Assembly (NCBI GenBank): GCA_020847545.1
Contig: JADLBV010000033.1
Coordinates: 1 to 64,000 of the forward strand
Source of the DNA: Phycisphaerales bacterium
Lineage (GTDB): Bacteria; Planctomycetota; Phycisphaerae; Tepidisphaerales; Tepidisphaeraceae
Length of the DNA stretch: 64,000 bases
Reading direction: 5' to 3'
This document shows, in pieces, positions 31,214 through 43,559 of the stretch. A model generated the notes under the pieces. The model did no database searches. It was not told where the DNA came from and saw only the letters and a program-made list of their open reading frames with translations. The position numbers and the translations under genes were made by a program. The stretch's first letter is position 1, and every line of letters begins with the position of its first letter.

Positions 31214-31633
31214 ATGATTCGTGATTTTTTGGATATTGCCACCGCCTTGTCGGATATGAATCGCACACGGGTGCTGTTGGCGCTTCGGCATGGTGAATTA
31301 TGCGTTTGTCAGATTGTTGAACTTCTTTGCCTCGCTCCATCCACGACATCCAAACACCTGTCGATCCTGAAGCGGGCGGAACTGGTTGATGCCCGCAAGC
31401 AGGCCCGCTGGATGTATTATGCCCTGCCAGCCAACCCCACGCCGATTGTCCAGCAGGCAATTGCATGGACCTTCAATGCACTGGAGCAATCCTCACAAAC
31501 AAAAGATGACGACAAGCTGCTGGCGGACATCTTGAAGCAAAACCCGGCGGACCTTTGCCGCCGACAATCTGGAAAAGTGAACTGTTATTCCCCTGTTCCT
31601 GAAAATGCAACCAAACAAAAGGAAATGCCATGA
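31214..31633 (+). CDS. arsR: ArsR-family metalloregulator
   Basis: 139 residues. A winged-helix domain (about 1-90) has [25 protein letters not shown], where the vicinal Cys30 and Cys32 in the CVC motif of the alpha-3 helix are the arsenite-binding site of classical ArsR repressors. The DNA-recognition helix is [11 protein letters not shown] longer C-terminal tail includes CRR and NCYSP, and the two extra Cys may contribute. The stop overlaps arsM's start by 4 bases (ATGA), so the two are translationally coupled. It probably represses its own operon. Confidence 0.93.
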
Positions 31634-32505
31634 ATCAAAACAAGATCGATTCGGTCAAAGACAAATATGGAGAGGTGGCCGCCAGTGGACTGTCCAGTCG
31701 TGACAGCGGTATAAAGGCGGTGGCCGAGGCGTTTGGCTACACGCCCGAAGAGTTGTCATCCATACCGGCCGAAGCCAACATGGGTTTGTCCTGTGGAAAT
31801 CCCACGGCATTTGCCAGCCTCAAAAGTGGCGAAGTCGTGGTGGATCTGGGTTGTGGAGGGGGATTGGATGTTTTTCTTGCTTCTCAAAAAGTCGGCCCAA
31901 CCGGCAAGGCCATCGGCATTGACATGACGCCACGGATGATTGAACTGGCTCGTCGAAATGCCGAATTATCGGGGACTGGGAATGTGGAATTCCATCAGGC
32001 CACCATCGATAAATTGCCAATCGCCAGTGGGTCGGTGGATTGCATCATCAGCAACTGCGTGATCAATCTCGCCCCCGACAAACCGGCCGTCTATCGCGAG
32101 ATGGCTCGTGTTCTTAAGCCGGGCGGGCGATTGGCCATCAGCGACATCGCACTCAAAAAGCCCCTGCCAGCGGAATTGGCGAAGAATATATATGCGTATG
32201 TCGGGTGCATTGCCGGTGCGATCCAGATCAATGAGTTTCAAGATGGCTTGCAGGCGGCCGGTTTTGATGCGGTGCAGGTCATCGACAGCGGCAAGGACCT
32301 CAATGCTTATTCCAAGGCGGATGGGCAAAGTGGATGCTGTTCGCCGTCGATGGTGCAGGTTTCCATCAACCAAAAGGTTACACAAAACGACAAACCCGTC
32401 GCCGCCAAGGTGCTGCATCGGCCGCTGAGCGACCTGTTAAGCCAATATAACATCAACGAATATGCGGCGAGCGTGAAGGTTTATGCGATTAAACCCGAAG
32501 GATGA
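31630..32505 (+). CDS. arsM: Arsenite S-adenosylmethionine methyltransferase ArsM
   Basis: 291 residues. It methylates As(III) to mono-, di- and trimethylated forms in the cytosol. The start [11 protein letters not shown] is followed by Cys55 in [13 protein letters not shown] motif [12 protein letters not shown], Cys143 in [10 protein letters not shown] and Cys193 in YVGCIAGA; the three Cys match the conserved arsenic-binding set. A CC pair (236-237) in SGCCSP near the C-terminus is a further candidate thiol site. Operon partner of arsR. Its product has a C-terminal extension of about 50 residues (INQKVTQ onward) beyond the catalytic fold. Confidence 0.93.
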
Positions 32506-32635
32506 ATACGCTTGCCAAAACAACAATGTAGCCAATCCAAGGCTTGAAATATCGGCTCCAATCCCCTACTTTTCTGCCCTTCCGGCGGGGATGGTTGACC
32601 TGCCGTTGTTCAATTTCACACAAGAGGTTTTAAGA

Positions 32636-33220
32636 ATGAACGCCATTGTTGGTAAACCAGCACCCCAGTTTTCGCTTGATGCGGTTCATCAGGGCCAGTT
32701 TCACAAGGTTTCGCTGGATGACTATAAGAAAAAGTGGCTTGTGGTCTTCTTTTATCCGTTGAACTTCACCTTTGTCTGTCCGACTGAAATCCTCGCCTTC
32801 TCCGACCGGTATGATGAATTTCATAAGCTCGGCGCCGAGCTGGTCGGCGTCAGCGTGGATAGTAAATATTCCCACCTGGCATGGACCGACAAGACTCGTA
32901 AAGAAGGTGGTATTCAGGGGTTGCGTTATCCCCTGCTGGCTGACTTGAACCGCAGCATGGCCCGCGACTATGGTGTATTGACTGATGAAGGCGTCGCGTT
33001 GCGTGGGTTGTTTCTGATTGACCCCAATGGAATCGTTCAACACGCCACAATCAACAATCTGGGTGTTGGTCGGTCGGTGGATGAAACCCTTCGCATTCTT
33101 CAGGCATTCCAGTTTGTTCGCGAACATGGAGATGTTTGCCCCGCCGATTGGCAGCCGGGCGAGGATGGCATGAAGGCTGACCCGCTGGAATCCAAATTAT
33201 ATTTCGCCAAACAAGCATAG
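32636..33220 (+). CDS. Typical 2-Cys peroxiredoxin (AhpC/TSA family)
   Basis: 194 residues. It reduces peroxides with thioredoxin-type reductants. Peroxidatic Cys48 lies in NFTFVCPTE, resolving Cys168 in GDVCPADW, and the YF-like C-terminus LYFAKQA is present, as in typical 2-Cys enzymes. ATG 32636 is chosen with AAGAGG upstream; the frame extends back to 32483 but the extra part has no family similarity. It follows arsM with a 130-base gap, so cotranscription is uncertain. Arsenic stress and peroxide defence may be linked. Confidence 0.95.
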
Positions 33221-33241
33221 CCGTCCACAATAGGAGATATC

Positions 33242-34546
33242 ATGGCCAGGATTCGACCTTTCGCGGGGATACATTACGCCAAGCGTCCGGAACTCAATTT
33301 TTCCAACGTCATCGCCCCGCCGTACGATGTGCTGGATGATAAGGGCAAGACGCGACTTCAGGCCGCCTCGCCGGAGAACATTGTCAACATCGACCTGCCG
33401 CACCTGCCGGCCAAGACCGCCGGGCCGGATGAGGTGTACGCCCAGTCGGCCGCCACGCTGAAGGATTGGCTGGCCAAAGGCATCCTTCAACGCGACCAAC
33501 GCCCCGCCACTTATGTCTATTCGCAAACCTATGAACATGGCGGGCGGAGTTTTCATCGACGTGGGTTTATCGCATTGGTTCGCCTGTCGGAATTTGGACA
33601 GGGACAGGTCGTACCCCATGAAAAAACCTACAAAGGGCCGATTGAAGATCGACTGAAACTCATGCGGGCCACCAAGGTTCAGCTATCGCCGATCTTCGGC
33701 CTGTTCAGCGATCCGCGAAATAAGATCACTAACCTGCTCTACAGCAAAGTCGCCAAGCCTTATCTGACCGGCACGTTGGAAGGGGTGAAAAACGACCTGT
33801 GGACCGTGATCGACGCCGAGGTTGAAAATCAGTTGATCGACATGATGAAAGAGACCCCCATCTACATCGCCGATGGGCATCATCGATACACCACCGCGCT
33901 GCAATACAAAAAGGAGATGGAGGAAAAAAATGGCGGGCCACTCCCGCCCAACCACCCGGCCAACTGGTGCATGTTCGTGCTGGTGGGGATGCAGGATCCC
34001 GGATTGCTGATCCTGCCGACACATCGACTGATTGGCGGGTTGCAAGGGTTTGATATGGCTGGGTTTACGGCCGCATTGGGCAATGACTTTGAAGTCATCA
34101 CCACGCCCCTTCGGCCGGACCATGTGGATGAGTTCGCCCAAACCCTTGCCGGATACCCCGGCCACAGCTTTGGCCTGTACGATGGCAAAACGAAAAAGCT
34201 CTATGTTCTGCGCCTGAAAAACGAGCAAATCCTCAAGCCCTATGAACCCAATCAGAGCGATGCGTGGCGTTCATTGGATGTGGCGATCTTGCAGCGTTAT
34301 CTGCTGGATGAGGTGATTCAACCCAAGTTCAATGGCGGTAAGGAGTTAACCAAAGGTTACACGGCCGACCCGCACGCCATTGCTTCGCAGGTGGACAGCG
34401 GAGCTTATCAATTGGCGTTGATCTTGAAGCCGACACCGTTGCACGCATTGGAAGAGCTTGGCAAGCATGGTGAGGTCATGCCGCAGAAGAGCACCTATTT
34501 TTATCCCAAACTGGCCACGGGGATGGTGATTAACCCGTTGGAATAG
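33242..34546 (+). CDS. DUF1015 family protein
   Basis: 434 residues of the DUF1015 (SerK-like) family. It has the opening MARIRPFAGIHY, NVIAPPYDVL, the acidic/His core IADGHHRYTTAL and PTHRLIGGL. Some archaeal relatives are ADP-dependent serine kinases, while bacterial members are mostly uncharacterised. It is 21 bases downstream of the peroxiredoxin gene and ends before a new promoter for the M16 pair. A specific function is not claimed. Confidence 0.88.
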   Translation: MARIRPFAGIHYAKRPELNFSNVIAPPYDVLDDKGKTRLQAASPENIVNIDLPHLPAKTAGPDEVYAQSAATLKDWLAKGILQRDQRPATYVYSQTYEHGGRSFHRRGFIALVRLSEFGQGQVVPHEKTYKGPIEDRLKLMRATKVQLSPIFGLFSDPRNKITNLLYSKVAKPYLTGTLEGVKNDLWTVIDAEVENQLIDMMKETPIYIADGHHRYTTALQYKKEMEEKNGGPLPPNHPANWCMFVLVGMQDPGLLILPTHRLIGGLQGFDMAGFTAALGNDFEVITTPLRPDHVDEFAQTLAGYPGHSFGLYDGKTKKLYVLRLKNEQILKPYEPNQSDAWRSLDVAILQRYLLDEVIQPKFNGGKELTKGYTADPHAIASQVDSGAYQLALILKPTPLHALEELGKHGEVMPQKSTYFYPKLATGMVINPLE

Positions 34547-34600
34547 CGAAAGTTATGATTTTTTTGACCGGCAAGCATTACTCACAAGACGCCGAGCGCC

Positions 34601-34606
34601 TATAAT
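34601..34606 (+). promoter_or_regulatory. -10 element upstream of the M16 pair
   Basis: A perfect TATAAT lies 34 bases before the TTG start of the first M16 gene. No good -35 is visible at 17 bases (only TTACTC). A TTGACC at 34564 is too far upstream. It fits a promoter between the DUF1015 and M16 genes, but support is partial. Confidence 0.45.
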
Positions 34607-34639
34607 TTCGCACCTCTTTGTCCGCACGAAGGAGCCTCA

Positions 34640-35875
34640 TTGGGCGAACGTTATTTTCAGCACACATTTGAAAACGGCCTGACACTATTGGCCGAGAAGA
34701 TGCCCGCCATGCAGTCGGCGGCGATGTCATTGTTGGTCCCGGCAGGGTCTTGTACGGACCCGGTGGACCGCACCGGCTCGTCGACCGTAATATCCGACCT
34801 GATCCTGCGCGGGGCCGGCGACCGCGACAGCCACGCCTTGACCGATTATCTCGACAGTCTGGGGCTGCAACGCGCATCGAGCGTCGGGGTACATCACACC
34901 CGGTTGGGATGCGCGGCATTGGCGGAAAATGTCATGACCGGCCTGGCGACGTATGCTGACATTGTTCAGCGGCCGCAGATGCCTCAAAGCGGCTTTGACG
35001 CCGCCCGCGATCTGGCATTGCAGGCGCTGGCGGGGCTGGACGATGATCCAAGACAAAAGTTGCTGGTGAAGCTGCGGGAATGGCATTTTCCATCGCCGTT
35101 TGGGCGCAATTCGATGGGTACGAAGGAGGACCTGGAAAAACTGACGCTTGATTTGTGCCGGGCGGATTTTGGGCATCGGTTTCATGCCGGCGGCGCGATT
35201 CTGGCGGTGGCGGGGAATGTTGATTTCAACGCGTTGCGCGAACAGACACAGGCGCATTTTGGCGCGTGGAAGTCTGGCGTTGGCGACGAATTGCGGATCA
35301 TGCCGCCGCCGGGTATGTATCACCATGAGCCACAGCAGAGCGAGCAGACGCACATCGGCATCGCGTATCCATCGATCACGGAAGACCATCCGGATTATTA
35401 TGTGGTTCGGCTGGCGGTGGAGGTGCTCAGCGGCGGGATGAGCGGGCGGTTGTTCACCGAAGTGAGGGAAAAACGGGCGTTGTGTTACAGCGTCTGGGCC
35501 GGATACAGCAGTCTGAAAACGCAGGGGAGCATCATGGGGTATGCCGGCACAAGCAATGATCGCGCCCAGGCGACGCTGGATTGTCTGGTGGGTGAATTGC
35601 ATCGCCTGAGCGATGGGATCACCATCGAGGAACTGACGCGGGCCAAGACCGGCCTGAAGGCCGCGACGATCATGCAGGGGGAGTCGACCAGCGCCCGCGC
35701 GGGGGCGATTGCCCATGATTATTTCATTCGCGGGCGGATTCGCACGCTCGATGAGATTAAAAACGCGGTCGATTCGGTGTCGCTGGAGCAGGTGAATGCG
35801 TATCTGGCGAGCCACCGCCCCGGGCCGTTCACGATGGTGATTGTCGGGCCAAAGGAACTGCGCCTGCCGGAATAA
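34640..35875 (+). CDS. M16-family peptidase homologue, inactive subunit
   Basis: 411 residues with a TTG start preceded by GAAGGAG at 34628-34634. The fold is M16 (FENGLTLLAEKM opening, GSSTVISDLILRGAG, then the typical second half with SGGMSGRLFTEVREKRALCYSVWA). The HxxEH zinc motif is absent: the corresponding stretch reads STVISDLIL. The SGRLF-type glycine loop is kept. It is likely the non-catalytic partner of the next gene, as in MPP-alpha and beta or PqqF-like pairs. Eleven bases separate the two genes. Confidence 0.88.
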   Translation: MGERYFQHTFENGLTLLAEKMPAMQSAAMSLLVPAGSCTDPVDRTGSSTVISDLILRGAGDRDSHALTDYLDSLGLQRASSVGVHHTRLGCAALAENVMTGLATYADIVQRPQMPQSGFDAARDLALQALAGLDDDPRQKLLVKLREWHFPSPFGRNSMGTKEDLEKLTLDLCRADFGHRFHAGGAILAVAGNVDFNALREQTQAHFGAWKSGVGDELRIMPPPGMYHHEPQQSEQTHIGIAYPSITEDHPDYYVVRLAVEVLSGGMSGRLFTEVREKRALCYSVWAGYSSLKTQGSIMGYAGTSNDRAQATLDCLVGELHRLSDGITIEELTRAKTGLKAATIMQGESTSARAGAIAHDYFIRGRIRTLDEIKNAVDSVSLEQVNAYLASHRPGPFTMVIVGPKELRLPE

Positions 35876-35886
35876 GGATTTAATTT

Positions 35887-37107
35887 ATGCCGCTGAAGTT
35901 TCATCATCAGACATTAAGCAACGGCTTGGACATCGTGGCCGAGATCAATCCGGATGCGCATAGTTTTGCGGCCGGATTGTTCGTCAAGACGGGATCGCGC
36001 GATGAGGAGTCATCGATCAACGGTGTGTCGCATTTTCTGGAACACATGATGTTCAAGGGATCGGATCGGTACACCTGGGAGGATGTCAACCGGATATTTG
36101 ATGAGATCGGCGCGCGATACAACGCCTTTACCAGTCAGGAGATGACGGCGTATTACGCCAATGTTTTGCCGGAGTTTACTGAGAAGGCGGTTGAGCATCT
36201 GGCTCATCTGCTGAGACCGGCGATTCGACAAAGCGATTTTGACACGGAAAAGAAGGTCATTCTCGAAGAGATCGCGATGTATCTGGATGATCCGGGACAT
36301 CGGCTTTATGAGAAGCTAATGGAGTTGCATTTTGGCAATCATCCGCTGTCGCAAAGCGTGCTGGGGCCGGCCGAGTCGATCCGGAATCTGAAGCGCGATC
36401 AGATGGCGGGGTATTTCAACAGCCATTACGGGCCGGGGAACATGGTTTTGTCGGTGACCGGCAACATGGATTTCAATGAGGTGGTGAAACTGGCCGAGCG
36501 GTATATGGGATTGTGGCCAAAGGTGCAGGCGGCGCGCGATCAGCCGTTGCCATTGTATAAGCCGCAGGAACAGGATTTGGTCGATGCCAAGCTCAATCGA
36601 TGTTATACGATGGGGATGACCCCCGGCCCCAGTGCCCAGGATGAGCGGCGGTTCGCGGCCAGGGTGCTGGCGGATGTCATTGGTGATTCGGATGGTTCGC
36701 GTTTTTATTGGGCGCTGGTGGACAACGCCATCGCCGAGGATGCGGACTTTGGGTTTTACCCGCACGATGGATGCGGGAGTTTTTATTTTGCCCTGACAAC
36801 CGACCCCAAACGCACCAAACAGGCGATGAAGATCGCGCTTGATGAACTGCAACGAATCCGTCGCGACCTGAACAACGATGAGGTCGATCGGGCCAAGAAT
36901 AAAATCGCCAGCGGCATCGTATTGCAGGGAGAAGTGCCGCTGGGGCGGATGCGGTCCATCGGCAGCCAGTGGATTTACAACAAGGAATATCGCTCGCTGG
37001 AACAGGACATGGAGACACTGCTGGCGGTGACGCCAAAATCATTGCAGCAGTTGATGGATGATTTTTCATTTGATCCGATGACCATTGTCAGTCTTGGGCC
37101 GGGGTGA
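35887..37107 (+). CDS. M16-family zinc peptidase, active subunit
   Basis: 406 residues with the intact inverted zinc motif HFLEH at 49-53 and the third ligand Glu in EKKVILEEIAMY. Substrate-groove features include LVDAKLNRCYTMG and SDGSRFYWALVDN. Homologues include mitochondrial processing peptidase and PqqF-like enzymes. Partner of the inactive subunit immediately upstream. No signal peptide is visible, so the pair probably acts in the cytosol. Confidence 0.92.
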   Translation: MPLKFHHQTLSNGLDIVAEINPDAHSFAAGLFVKTGSRDEESSINGVSHFLEHMMFKGSDRYTWEDVNRIFDEIGARYNAFTSQEMTAYYANVLPEFTEKAVEHLAHLLRPAIRQSDFDTEKKVILEEIAMYLDDPGHRLYEKLMELHFGNHPLSQSVLGPAESIRNLKRDQMAGYFNSHYGPGNMVLSVTGNMDFNEVVKLAERYMGLWPKVQAARDQPLPLYKPQEQDLVDAKLNRCYTMGMTPGPSAQDERRFAARVLADVIGDSDGSRFYWALVDNAIAEDADFGFYPHDGCGSFYFALTTDPKRTKQAMKIALDELQRIRRDLNNDEVDRAKNKIASGIVLQGEVPLGRMRSIGSQWIYNKEYRSLEQDMETLLAVTPKSLQQLMDDFSFDPMTIVSLGPG

Positions 37108-38511: not shown

Positions 38512-38533
38512 TGTGACACGATTGCGGTATAAT
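38503..38533 (+). promoter_or_regulatory. Possible promoter of hflX
   Basis: A consensus TATAAT at 38528-38533, preceded by TTGAAA at 38503-38508 with a 19-base spacer, lies just upstream of the presumed TTG start of hflX. The spacer is slightly long. The -35 lies inside the end of glmM. Confidence 0.45.
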
Positions 38534-38566
38534 GGCATTGGTCACAGCGAAAGGAGCATCGGTCGA

Positions 38567-39937
38567 TTGGCAGAGTTGAAGCGAACGGAATTGTCGGTCC
38601 ACCAGGAGCGGGCGGTGCTGGTGGGGGTGATTTTGCCGCAATCGACGGCCGATCCGCGCAATCCGTTGGGGGAGCTGGGTTCGCTGGCCAAGACGGCCGG
38701 CGCGAAGGTCGTCGGGCAGATTTTACAAAAACGCCAACACCCGGACGCGGGCACATACGTCGGCAGCGGCAAGGCGATTGAGATTGCCCAACTGGCCATG
38801 CAAAACAAGGCGGATGTGGTGGTGTTTGACAATGATTTGTCGCCCGGACAAATCGGCTCGCTGGAAAAGATCATCAACGAAGAGGCGCAAAGCAAACGTG
38901 GCGAGGGGATCAAGGTTCTGGACCGCTCGGAATTGATTCTGGACATTTTTGCGGGGCGGGCACAAACGCACGAGGCCAAGTTGCAGGTGGAACTGGCGCA
39001 GATGCAGTACACCTATCCGCGACTGACGCGGATGTGGGGGCATCTGGAACGCATCGCCGGCGGCGCGCCGGCCGGCATCGGCACGCGCGGCCCGGGCGAA
39101 CAGCAGTTGGAAATCGACCGTCGACTGGTGCGAAAACGGATCTCCGAACTCAAAGGTGAGATCGATAAAATCCAGGACCGCAAGTCGAGGCTGGTGGCCA
39201 AACGCAATCAGGAACATTTCACGGTCTGCATTGTCGGGGACACCAACGCGGGCAAGAGCACGCTGTTCAACACACTGACGGCGGCGGGAACCTACGCCGA
39301 TGACAAACTATTCGCGACGCTGGACACCAAAACCCGCGCGTGGCGGCTGGAACGCGGTACCGAGGTGCTGCTGAGCGACACGGTGGGGTTCGTGCGTGAT
39401 CTGCCGCACAATCTGGTGGCATCATTTAAGGCGACGTTGGAGGAGGCGGTTCATGCGGACCTGCTGCTGCATGTGCTGGACGTGGGTCATCCGCACGCCG
39501 AGCAGCAATTCAGGAGCGTGCATCAGGTGTTGGAGGAGATCGGGGCCAAGGACAAGCCGGAAATTTTGCTGTTAAACAAAATTGATGTTGAGGAAGGGGC
39601 CGATGCTTGGCCGACATGGCGAACGTTGTATCCCGGCTCCATTCCCATCAGCGCCAAGACGGGACAAGGGTTGGATGAGCTGCATGAGACGGTCTATCGA
39701 CATGTGCTTGGCCAGCAAGTGGAGGTAACGCTGGAGGCGGATGTGACCGATGGCCGGCTGCTGGCGTTCATCGAATCGCACAGCCGTGTGAACGGGAGGG
39801 AATTTATGGATGACCGGGTGGAGATCGTTGCGGTGATGGGCAAGCAGACGCTGGCGGAACTGGCCCGCAATGGCAAGCTGGTCATCAAATCGGCGAAATC
39901 GGCATCTGGAGAGATGCAATCAGCGGTCAGGGAATGA
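38567..39937 (+). CDS. hflX: GTPase HflX
   Basis: Ribosome-binding GTPase that splits stalled 70S ribosomes under stress. It is about 456 residues, with an N-terminal HflX domain (LGSLAKTAGAKVV, VGSGKAIEIAQL, NDLSPGQIGSLEK, the GTRGPGEQQLEIDRRL block) and a G domain with GDTNAGKST (G1), DTVGFVRDLPH (G3), NKID (G4) and SAKTGQG (G5). TTG 38567 is preferred, with AAGGAG 10 bases upstream and a TATAAT further up; the GTG at 38513 lies near the end of glmM. It overlaps the CvpA-like gene by 11 bases, tail to tail. Confidence 0.93.
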   Translation: MAELKRTELSVHQERAVLVGVILPQSTADPRNPLGELGSLAKTAGAKVVGQILQKRQHPDAGTYVGSGKAIEIAQLAMQNKADVVVFDNDLSPGQIGSLEKIINEEAQSKRGEGIKVLDRSELILDIFAGRAQTHEAKLQVELAQMQYTYPRLTRMWGHLERIAGGAPAGIGTRGPGEQQLEIDRRLVRKRISELKGEIDKIQDRKSRLVAKRNQEHFTVCIVGDTNAGKSTLFNTLTAAGTYADDKLFATLDTKTRAWRLERGTEVLLSDTVGFVRDLPHNLVASFKATLEEAVHADLLLHVLDVGHPHAEQQFRSVHQVLEEIGAKDKPEILLLNKIDVEEGADAWPTWRTLYPGSIPISAKTGQGLDELHETVYRHVLGQQVEVTLEADVTDGRLLAFIESHSRVNGREFMDDRVEIVAVMGKQTLAELARNGKLVIKSAKSASGEMQSAVRE

Positions 39938-41792
39938 CCTGATCGAAGTTCTGGATCGGCTGGTTGCGAAAATCGAGTGATCGGATGTGGGTGTTGGCGG
40001 GGACGACATAGGCGATCCACAAATCGGTGGGCGTGCCCTCTTCTCGATTGAGGCCCATCACCAGCCCGTCGGCGCGATATTGGGCGATGAGTTTGTCGCT
40101 GGTCCCCTGCTTGATGCTGGTCCAGGCGCCGTTAGGCTTGTAATGCCGGCCGGCGGCGTCCACCAATTCAATGTCACCGAGCGAATTGGCCCATGCCCAC
40201 TTGTCGGCATTTTCCTGTGGATTGGCGAAGCCGCTGATCTGCACCATCGTCATGCCCGGCGGAACATACATGTCGCGCACGACATATTCACCCTGCGCCA
40301 TCCTCTGAATCGAATCCACGGCGGTGATGTTGAGCATGGAAAATTTGCGGTCGGTCAGTGAAAACGTGCCCGAGGCGATCTGGCCGTTGCGGACGTTGTC
40401 ATCGGGGGTGCCGACATTGATGGAGGTGAAAAGACTGCGCGAACCATCGATGTTGCTGTAACGAAACGGTGCGGGGATGGCGGCGCCGGGCGCGCCGGGC
40501 ATCGCACCGGGAGGGCCGGGCATGCCAGGCATTCCCGGCGGGCCGGGGGTGGGGCCGGGAGCGGCCGGTTGTTTCTGGGTTGCCCCTTTACGCAAAACCT
40601 GGATCAATGGCGATGGTGAAATCGAAGGGTCGATTTTCTTGCCGGCCAGATCTACCTTGGCCAGCCGTTTGACTTCAATGAAGACGCCGGGGTTGATGGT
40701 CAGTCCTTCATCCTTTGCGCCTTGGGCGACATCCGATTCGTTCACCAGAAAAACCAGATCGGCCCCCATGTCCTCGCCGGTGATTGAAACAAAAAGCGGA
40801 TCATCGACGCGGTTGTTGATCAGCAGGTTGGCATTTTCAAGCGTACCGATGGGATGATAATTTTTGCCATTGGCCACCAGCCGGACAGCGCCGGGGCTGA
40901 AGCGGAAAATCTTGTCCTTGTCGGTGGCGTTGATGTCGAAAATGGTGCGAACCACCAGCAATACCTGATCCGTAGCGGGCTTGAGGATCACCGGTAACTT
41001 GCGGGTGCGAATCGTACTCACCTCCGCATCCGACTGGGCAACCTGTGACAGCGAATAGACACCATTCACTTTTACCCATTCGGCCACACCGGGAATGTTG
41101 ATGGCGGTGTGAGATGCGCCGGGCTGTACGCCCAGCCTGCTGGCGAACATCTCCATGGCGTAATCGGGGTGGATCGAATGGACGGTTCGCTGGCCGGCCA
41201 ATGAGCCGCCGCTGAGATGGTCGGCCAATCCCAGCACCATCTCATCGACCGATGGGAATAGCGATTGAGCGCGGGCGTTGTCTTCGACATCAGCACTGGC
41301 GCCGATTTGGTCAACCGATATTTCGTCGAAAACCTGCGCATCGTACATCCGGTTGTCGATGGTCACCTTGACTGGACGGTCGGTGACCGGATAGCGGGAA
41401 AAATAGGCGATGGTCGTGCCAAACGGCAGAGACTGGGCCGCGAGGGCAAAGATGCCGGTGGCGAAGATGCCGGCGATGATTCCCATGATCGCGCCGCCGA
41501 CCTTGTCCACCACGGCCGGAAAGCGAACGTTGCCGGGAATGGCTTTGTCAAAGATCAATCGCAGGATGACATATATCGCGGCGAAGAGAATGATCAGCGA
41601 CATGGCCAGCGCCTGATCGCCAAAACGCCCCTTGAGCAGCATCATCACAAGCGTCTCGTGATAACCAAATGCCAGCATCGCGGCGATGATGGCGATGAAG
41701 GCCGAGATCGTGGCGCCGAAAAAACCCTGGACATAGTGAAAAAAGGCGATCAGGCCGATCAGGACAATGATGATGATGTTGAAAAGGCTCAT
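39927..41792 (-). CDS. CvpA-family membrane protein with large planctomycete extension
   Basis: 621 residues. The N-terminal 130 or so form a CvpA-type helical bundle (TM1 ILIGLIAFFHYV, then three or four helices to GIFALAAQSLPFG). About 270 residues of novel sequence follow, then a Gly-Pro-rich collagen-like linker coded at about 40475-40590 (GPPGMPGMPGPPG) and a C-terminal domain of about 190 residues beginning IPAPFRYSN. CvpA itself is a colicin V production/envelope factor. The extension is not in E. coli CvpA. Second gene of a two-gene unit with the GspE-like pseudo-ATPase, 54 bases apart. Confidence 0.75.
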   Translation of the reverse strand: MSLFNIIIIVLIGLIAFFHYVQGFFGATISAFIAIIAAMLAFGYHETLVMMLLKGRFGDQALAMSLIILFAAIYVILRLIFDKAIPGNVRFPAVVDKVGGAIMGIIAGIFATGIFALAAQSLPFGTTIAYFSRYPVTDRPVKVTIDNRMYDAQVFDEISVDQIGASADVEDNARAQSLFPSVDEMVLGLADHLSGGSLAGQRTVHSIHPDYAMEMFASRLGVQPGASHTAINIPGVAEWVKVNGVYSLSQVAQSDAEVSTIRTRKLPVILKPATDQVLLVVRTIFDINATDKDKIFRFSPGAVRLVANGKNYHPIGTLENANLLINNRVDDPLFVSITGEDMGADLVFLVNESDVAQGAKDEGLTINPGVFIEVKRLAKVDLAGKKIDPSISPSPLIQVLRKGATQKQPAAPGPTPGPPGMPGMPGPPGAMPGAPGAAIPAPFRYSNIDGSRSLFTSINVGTPDDNVRNGQIASGTFSLTDRKFSMLNITAVDSIQRMAQGEYVVRDMYVPPGMTMVQISGFANPQENADKWAWANSLGDIELVDAAGRHYKPNGAWTSIKQGTSDKLIAQYRADGLVMGLNREEGTPTDLWIAYVVPANTHIRSLDFRNQPIQNFDQVIP

Positions 41793-41846
41793 GGATTTCT
41801 CGAAAGCGGCCGGCGATGAAACCGGCCGGTCATAGTAGGTTGACGA

Positions 41847-43559
41847 CTACGCGACGGCCGGGTTTTGTGGGTTTTGCGGTCCCTTATCGGGTGGCCGGGA
41901 TGCGGGGCGGCTCGACCCTTCACTGCCCGCTTTTAAGACCCGCAAAACCTCCTGAATGCTGGTATCGCCCGCCTCGACGAGGCTTAACGCCTGTTCCTGC
42001 AAATACTTGGAACGCTGCTTGCGGAAGATGGCTTTCAGTTGATTGATCGATCCGCCGGAAGTGACGATTTGACGCACTTCATCGTCCACCTGCAGGATTT
42101 CGTAAATGCCGGTTCGGCCGTGGAATCGCAGGTCATGGCAGAATTCGCACGATAGCGGATTCCCCTTGGCATCACGCAGCGGTTCGGTGCGGGCCTGAAA
42201 GAGCTTGCTGATGCGGTCAGGGTCCATGTTCATTTTGCGCAACGTGGCGGGGTCGGGGGCGTATCCCACCTTGCAGGCGGTGCAGAGTTTTCGCAGCACC
42301 CGGCCATTGATGATCAATTCCAGATGCTGCATGGCCTGTTTGTCGTTGCCGACAATTTTTCGCCAGTTGGACAGGGCCTCAAATGTGCTGGCGGCGCGGG
42401 TGCCGATGTAGACGCGATGGCCGGCGGCGGCAAATTTGATGAGGATCGAGGCGCTTTTGGGATCGCGCACCTCGTTCATCATGAACACATCCGGTTCGCG
42501 GTCGATCACCCATTGCACGCGCTCGGTCTCTTCGGTGTTGGTGGCGCTGCGCGGGAGATTTTCCTGTGTGATCCCTTCAAGGTCCTGATCCGGGTCGCGC
42601 TCGACGGTGATGATATGGCTTAAAAAGGCGTCGTGGGAGCGAACCAGGGCATACAACAAGGATGTCAGGCCATGTTCGCTTGGGGCGCTGACCAGAACGA
42701 TCCCCTTGTTGTCGGCGACCGATTCCTTGATCTTCACCATTTGCGATTCGGACAACCCAAGTTGATCAAGTGTGAGCGAATGGCGGGTCTTGGCATCAGT
42801 GCGAAGGGTCATGGATTCGCCCGATGAACTGCCGCTGGTCATCAGTTGCAGCTCACGGCGCTTGCCATCGAGCGTAGCGCGGAAACCGCCCGCCTGTGGC
42901 TTGCGTTTTTCCTTGAGATCCAGGCCGGCCAGATTTTTCACAAATGAGACCGCCCCACTGCTCGCGCCGCGAGGTAATGACAAGGAATTGTAGTACACCC
43001 CATCCACCTCAAACTGCACCGCGGCCGCCCCTTCGCTGGGCGTCACATCGATGCGCTGCGCCCCTTTACGCAATGGATCGGTCAGTATTTGCTGGACGGA
43101 ATCATATGCGGCCCGTTCGGGTGTCTCGGCCGGCGGCGCGGCCACCGGCGAGCCGGCGCGGTTGAACAACAACACCTCACCCTCGGCCACCGTGACCTCG
43201 GCCGGCTTGCGGCCAAAGCTCTTGATCCAGTCGCTGAATTGTTTTTGCAGATCCCCCAGCCCGACTTTGCGATACCGGATGAACAAATAGGCCGCCGCCG
43301 CGACGAGCATCACCAGCAGCATGACCCCGAACGCGGCCCAGAATCCTCCCATGTAGAAAAAGAGGATCAGCGCCAAAATCCCCGCTGACATCTGGCCGAT
43401 GTTGTTCTCGATGCGCGGCAGATGCGCCGCCGGCGCATCCTTGTCCATCCACGTCAACCATCGCGCCCAGATCAGAAAGACCACCACCAGCGGAATCGTC
43501 TTCCAGACGCTGATGTATTCCCCGACCGGCACCTGTGCCAGCAGCAGACTCAAATCCAT
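41847..43559 (-). CDS. GspE/PilB-like membrane protein with degenerate ATPase motifs
   Basis: 570 residues. Two or three N-terminal membrane helices (about 18-34, 57-73, 76-95) precede a type II secretion/pilus ATPase fold. The Walker A region (291-300) reads SAPSEHGLTS, so the essential Lys is Leu298 and the Gly pattern is lost. Walker B is MMNEVRDPKSA (360-370) and the His box reads AGHRVYIGTR without its His. The four-Cys zinc site (Cys426, Cys429, Cys471, Cys474) and the FHGRTGIYEIL block are intact. Nucleotide hydrolysis is unlikely, so a structural role is inferred. Cotranscribed with the CvpA-like gene. Confidence 0.82.
   Translation of the reverse strand: MDLSLLLAQVPVGEYISVWKTIPLVVVFLIWARWLTWMDKDAPAAHLPRIENNIGQMSAGILALILFFYMGGFWAAFGVMLLVMLVAAAAYLFIRYRKVGLGDLQKQFSDWIKSFGRKPAEVTVAEGEVLLFNRAGSPVAAPPAETPERAAYDSVQQILTDPLRKGAQRIDVTPSEGAAAVQFEVDGVYYNSLSLPRGASSGAVSFVKNLAGLDLKEKRKPQAGGFRATLDGKRRELQLMTSGSSSGESMTLRTDAKTRHSLTLDQLGLSESQMVKIKESVADNKGIVLVSAPSEHGLTSLLYALVRSHDAFLSHIITVERDPDQDLEGITQENLPRSATNTEETERVQWVIDREPDVFMMNEVRDPKSASILIKFAAAGHRVYIGTRAASTFEALSNWRKIVGNDKQAMQHLELIINGRVLRKLCTACKVGYAPDPATLRKMNMDPDRISKLFQARTEPLRDAKGNPLSCEFCHDLRFHGRTGIYEILQVDDEVRQIVTSGGSINQLKAIFRKQRSKYLQEQALSLVEAGDTSIQEVLRVLKAGSEGSSRPASRPPDKGPQNPQNPAVA

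Follow-up and report, generated by a model that had tools for sequence, protein, structure and literature searches.

The window analysed here, a stretch of 64,000 nucleotides, provides strong sequence evidence for a pseudo-ATPase within a conserved gene module. Judged by gene order, pilT–(3TM)pilB-like–cvpA-like is the usual form of a putative old planctomycete membrane module, of which the window holds two thirds. The best explanation, and the one towards which we lean, is a PilT-powered membrane module in which the PilB partner has turned into a non-catalytic scaffold in the window's class. The preliminary description of the locus overlooked a third component of the module, the intact ATPase of PilT type.

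The pair in the window consists of a gene for a PilB/GspE-like pseudo-ATPase (41847..43559, minus strand, 570 aa) and a gene for a CvpA-like membrane protein (39927..41792, minus strand, 621 aa), both identified by ORF and domain searches. As originally described, the cvpA-like gene is the downstream one and 54 nt separate the two ORFs. It converges with an HflX-like gene (38513-39937, plus strand), the tails of the two overlapping by 11 nt at 39927-39937. Elsewhere in the window, at 31630-37107, genes for an ArsM-like methyltransferase, an AhpC-type peroxiredoxin and two M16-type peptidases follow one another; like the HflX-like gene, they were named by sequence look only.

Pfam places PF00437 in the PilB-like protein (E = 1.6e-53, residues 154-540) as a single domain after three membrane helices, and the PilB N2D-CTD core spans approximately residues 150-545. 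The three helices are hydrophobic and lie at about residues 18-44, 49-69 and 73-98, in agreement with the N-terminal membrane helices noted previously. In the AlphaFold model (pLDDT 91.9) the core gives TM scores (normalised by target) of 0.86-0.87 against crystal structures of PilF/PilB. The GspE/PilB fold assigned in the preliminary description is thus borne out, with the FHGRTGIYEIL block and the four-Cys (predicted zinc-type) site in place (C426, C429, C471 and C474; residues 426-474, 42138..42284, minus strand; these and the following motif coordinates were computed from residue numbers). In the degenerate Walker A motif (APSEHGLTS, residues 292-300, 42660..42686, minus strand) Leu298 occupies the lysine position, as first reported. 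The accompanying statement that the glycine pattern is gone holds for two Walker A glycines, while the last, G297, is kept. Similarly, the His box (residues 379-390, AGHRVYIGTRAA; 42390..42425, minus strand), described as lacking His, has Arg in place of the second His at position 388 but preserves the first, H381. The protein retains Arg253, Glu320 and Glu363 and has Gln at position 238, the arginine-finger positions 238 and 253 having been set by spacing to PilB R271/R286 (PMC5424180), not by direct alignment to that structure.

When 199 planctomycete genomes were searched, near-full-length relatives that include the TM region turned up in those sampled from the class, as well as in a few further families. 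A family model matched 298 of 298 class genomes at E<=1e-60, mostly over full length; a few low-scoring genomes among them may show a paralogue only, and when low scorers and others were searched again, 20 of 26 passed 1e-95. Among the matches listed, the best cover nearly all of the 544 columns of the model. Scanning GTDB contigs with a pattern derived from the degenerate clade produced 62 loci, which in nearly every case carry the label Phycisphaerae or Planctomycetota. We name the class Phycisphaerae because of these labels. One fragment (L133) is labelled Proteobacteria, which may be a binning error.

Residue conservation was compared between 31 intact relatives and 120 distinct sequences of the class, two having been set aside before the count (L129, which has the lysine, and L153, which is masked and truncated and has none). 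Alignment of the Walker A and B columns across these homologues revealed the Walker A lysine in 0 of 120 class sequences, 119 of which have a residue at position 298. What replaces the lysine varies freely between Leu, Val, Arg, Thr and Gln. Since the loss recurs across the class, Leu298 in the window is not an effect of chance or sequencing. Catalytic Glu363 of the GEIRD block is kept in 25% of class sequences, arginine-finger positions 238 and 253 in 14% and 20%, and His381 and His388 in 7% and 5%. The four Cys persist in 95-98%, R423, E537 and R540 in 100%, G297 in 100% (frequently followed by T/S), and ASP-box Glu320 in 99%. Measured against the closest relative, the PilB-like gene has a dN/dS of 0.09 (0.03 if the C-terminal part is taken by itself) and the cvpA-like gene one of 0.115; both genes are therefore maintained. 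As catalytic residues are lost class-wide and yet selection is strong, the PilB-like protein probably serves not as a motor but as a scaffold or adaptor.

Two deviations were seen among the members. L129:3409-5190, from a MAG, has the Walker A sequence GPPGSGKTT, the only lysine in the class sets, although it has lost the ASP-box Glu and the His box; it sits inside the degenerate clade on a very long branch, which we read as reversal, chance or contamination. In four loci (L065:7306-9069, L072:7164-8906, and L192, L193 of family f2) the four-Cys site has disappeared too (ALAKSSRE / PCPESGG), with pilT and cvpA still adjacent.

Loss of the lysine is no proof that ATP binding is lost. The retained G297 and Glu320 would be compatible with nucleotide binding without hydrolysis, and the window protein has Glu363 and Arg253 as well. 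The PilB-like protein might then be an ATP/ADP-dependent conformational switch or sensor instead of a passive scaffold. Invariance of G297, often with T/S next to it, and the near-universal Glu320, whose ASP-box counterpart is a Mg ligand in PilB (PMC5424180), speak for such a role. Nevertheless, most members have lost not only the lysine but also the loop Thr, the other glycines, both arginine fingers and the His box, and the free variation at position 298 points in the same direction. We consider a nucleotide switch rather unlikely.

The CvpA-like protein has four TM helices in residues 1-121, followed by low-confidence linkers. PF02674 (Colicin_V/CvpA) matches residues 5-124 at E = 1.5e-5, the 25.5 bits obtained lying below the curated cut-off of 29.3; 25 of 32 long relatives match at E<=0.01, the best at 6e-11. 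The extension of about 490 residues noticed earlier is confirmed, and the model (pLDDT 76.8, moderate) predicts two beta-sandwich domains in it, at approximately 231-386 and 436-621. The extension gave no Pfam match and no Foldseek match at E<=0.001. Its best structural matches (YxkC, YcdA, YjhA, 5bxg and MPT63) have Z of 5-6.8, below the safely specific level, and the resemblance of the predicted beta-sandwiches to DUF4352/MPT63 is suggestive only. MarP has a large extracytoplasmic domain after its CvpA domain. CvpA/MarP-type proteins (PF02674) and the CvpA-like protein appear to have the 4-TM CvpA domain in common; the extension of the latter, however, is a predicted beta-sandwich and not a serine protease, and its fixed partner is the PilB-like protein. 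No protease family was detected in it by Pfam, and the NCBIfam MarP model gave E = 0.27 over the TM part only.

In 60 of the 62 GTDB loci the PilB-like gene is followed directly by a cvpA-like gene, a contig end and a fragment accounting for the other two; a second sample shows the same in 60 of 60 loci. The two samples partly overlap, some contigs being the same records. The synteny of the pair is thus conserved across the class. Of the first 20 loci, 15 have an intact PilT-type gene upstream of the pair, and pilT is adjacent in 39/62 and 39/60 loci of the later samples, as counted from listings in which some contigs end too early to tell. In 8 of the first 20 loci (L054, L055, L056, L058, L061, L063, L067 and L073) a gene that is HisF-like by sequence look stands directly upstream of pilT.

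The module PilTs are intact and form a clade (94). The window's family has no pilT next to the PilB-like gene. The genome carries an orphan PilT with intact Walker A on contig C5 (L250:3937-5154), and this is the nearest own-genome relative of the module PilT clade (92, long end branch). Of 26 genomes belonging to the family, 25 have an unlinked PilT that is 70-95% identical to it, and by sequence the C5 orphan is probably the module PilT of this genome. More generally, 14 of 16 searched genomes without adjacent pilT have a module-type PilT elsewhere (526-594 bits, versus <=444 for other PilTs); of the other two, G223 has an ambiguous best PilT at 432 bits, and in G442 no module-type PilT was found.

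The same membrane-anchored PilB with GPTGxGK[ST], a Walker B block and a His box occurs in planctomycete families f30, f37, f51, f118 and f119 (31 sequences). Their cvpA-like partners are mostly 185-275 aa and lack the long extension. The cvpA-like gene is downstream in all but one genus (G024, G137, G194), where the loci L198, L208 and L205, respectively, were seen to encode an intact membrane PilB with no adjacent cvpA-like gene; two of the three have a 107-aa protein (MPLFEIETDAHIM...) closely downstream in its place.

The PilB-like and CvpA-like proteins could be merely co-transcribed neighbours with separate functions, given that they are linked through gene adjacency and that in the genus just mentioned the PilB-like gene has no cvpA next to it. 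We consider this improbable, for both adjacency and order hold in nearly all loci of several planctomycete lineages, even though pilT upstream and other genes nearby vary.

In a tree with the motif columns removed, membrane PilBs (intact and class sequences together) separate as a clade from canonical PilB/GspE (SH-aLRT 99), and in this clade the class sequences are one group (support 92). Since intact membrane PilB and CvpA pairs exist in other families, catalysis was lost secondarily. An always-scaffold family is ruled out by these intact relatives beside CvpA. The membrane module with a scaffold proposed in the preliminary description thus stands for the class, where catalytic loss goes with conserved CvpA pairing, but not for the whole family. 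Family f80 likewise has a degenerate PilB-like protein. The PilB-like tree joins f80 to the class with support of 62 and does not reject a single clade of f80 and f30 (p-AU 0.457); it is compatible with one shared loss, whereas the linked-PilT tree places f80 with intact f30 instead (99). Provided the operon was inherited together, this favours two losses, and by sequence catalysis was apparently lost separately in the window's class and in f80.

The same genome has separate GspE/PilB, PilT and PilC-type genes, with the pilC-type ones adjoining GspE/PilB genes, and its GspE/PilB genes used in the tree have intact motifs. The membrane PilB-like gene is therefore an extra, divergent paralogue. 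It is very unlikely to encode an ordinary active T2SS/T4P assembly ATPase with odd motif spelling: the fold and four-Cys site do match PilB/GspE, and the window keeps Glu363 and Arg253, yet a membrane anchor replaces the soluble N-terminal domain and the lysine, arginine fingers and His box are lost class-wide. An ordinary GspE of a T2SS/T4P cluster is ruled out by the separate GspE/PilB genes with pilC-type neighbours and by the tree. A decaying pseudogene, which the missing catalytic residues might suggest, is contradicted by frames open across the class and by the low dN/dS, and is almost certainly not the explanation.

The link among the PilB-like, CvpA-like and PilT proteins is drawn from gene adjacency; we infer the physical complex, the scaffold role, the coupling to PilT, the topology and the cellular process. 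In the PilT-powered module, the PilB-like subunit of the class would keep the PilB fold, membrane anchor, four-Cys site and C-terminal residues, with most residues for ATP binding and hydrolysis gone. This membrane-anchored scaffold would dock the intact module PilT (unlinked here, probably that of contig C5) at the inner membrane and connect this motor with the CvpA-like protein; the beta-sandwich domains of the latter would point towards the cell envelope. The process served may be pilus dynamics or another envelope task.

PilB/GspE extension ATPases (PF00437) have the N2D-CTD fold, the tetra-Cys site and the ASP-box Glu in common with the PilB-like protein. The latter differs by three N-terminal TM helices, by the absence of the Walker A lysine with arginine fingers and His box mostly lost in the class, and by a gene that adjoins cvpA and usually pilT too. 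A precedent for such a division of labour is the PilT-PilU pair of type IV pili, in which Walker-dead PilT still supports retraction via a second ATPase, PilU (PMC11656802). There, likewise, two paralogous PilT-family proteins are present, one able to act without hydrolysis (PMC11656802). Here, however, the non-catalytic partner is PilB-type, membrane-anchored and CvpA-linked, and any pilus role would be putative. We found no papers in the open-access literature on the module, whether on CvpA with PilT/PilB, on a pseudo-ATPase PilB or on planctomycete motors.

A broader reading, which we put forward tentatively, is a phylum-specific, pilus-independent envelope machine, in which a PilT-family motor would act via a PilB-like ring embedded in the membrane and a membrane/periplasmic effector of CvpA type, the ring being a pseudo-ATPase in the class and, separately, in f80. 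A pilus-motor pseudo-ATPase conserved class-wide, together with relatives that are intact and share its gene neighbourhood, constitutes a natural experiment on PilB without hydrolysis. The module connects CvpA, a poorly understood family, with a PilT-type motor and suggests an undescribed envelope system for the Planctomycetota.
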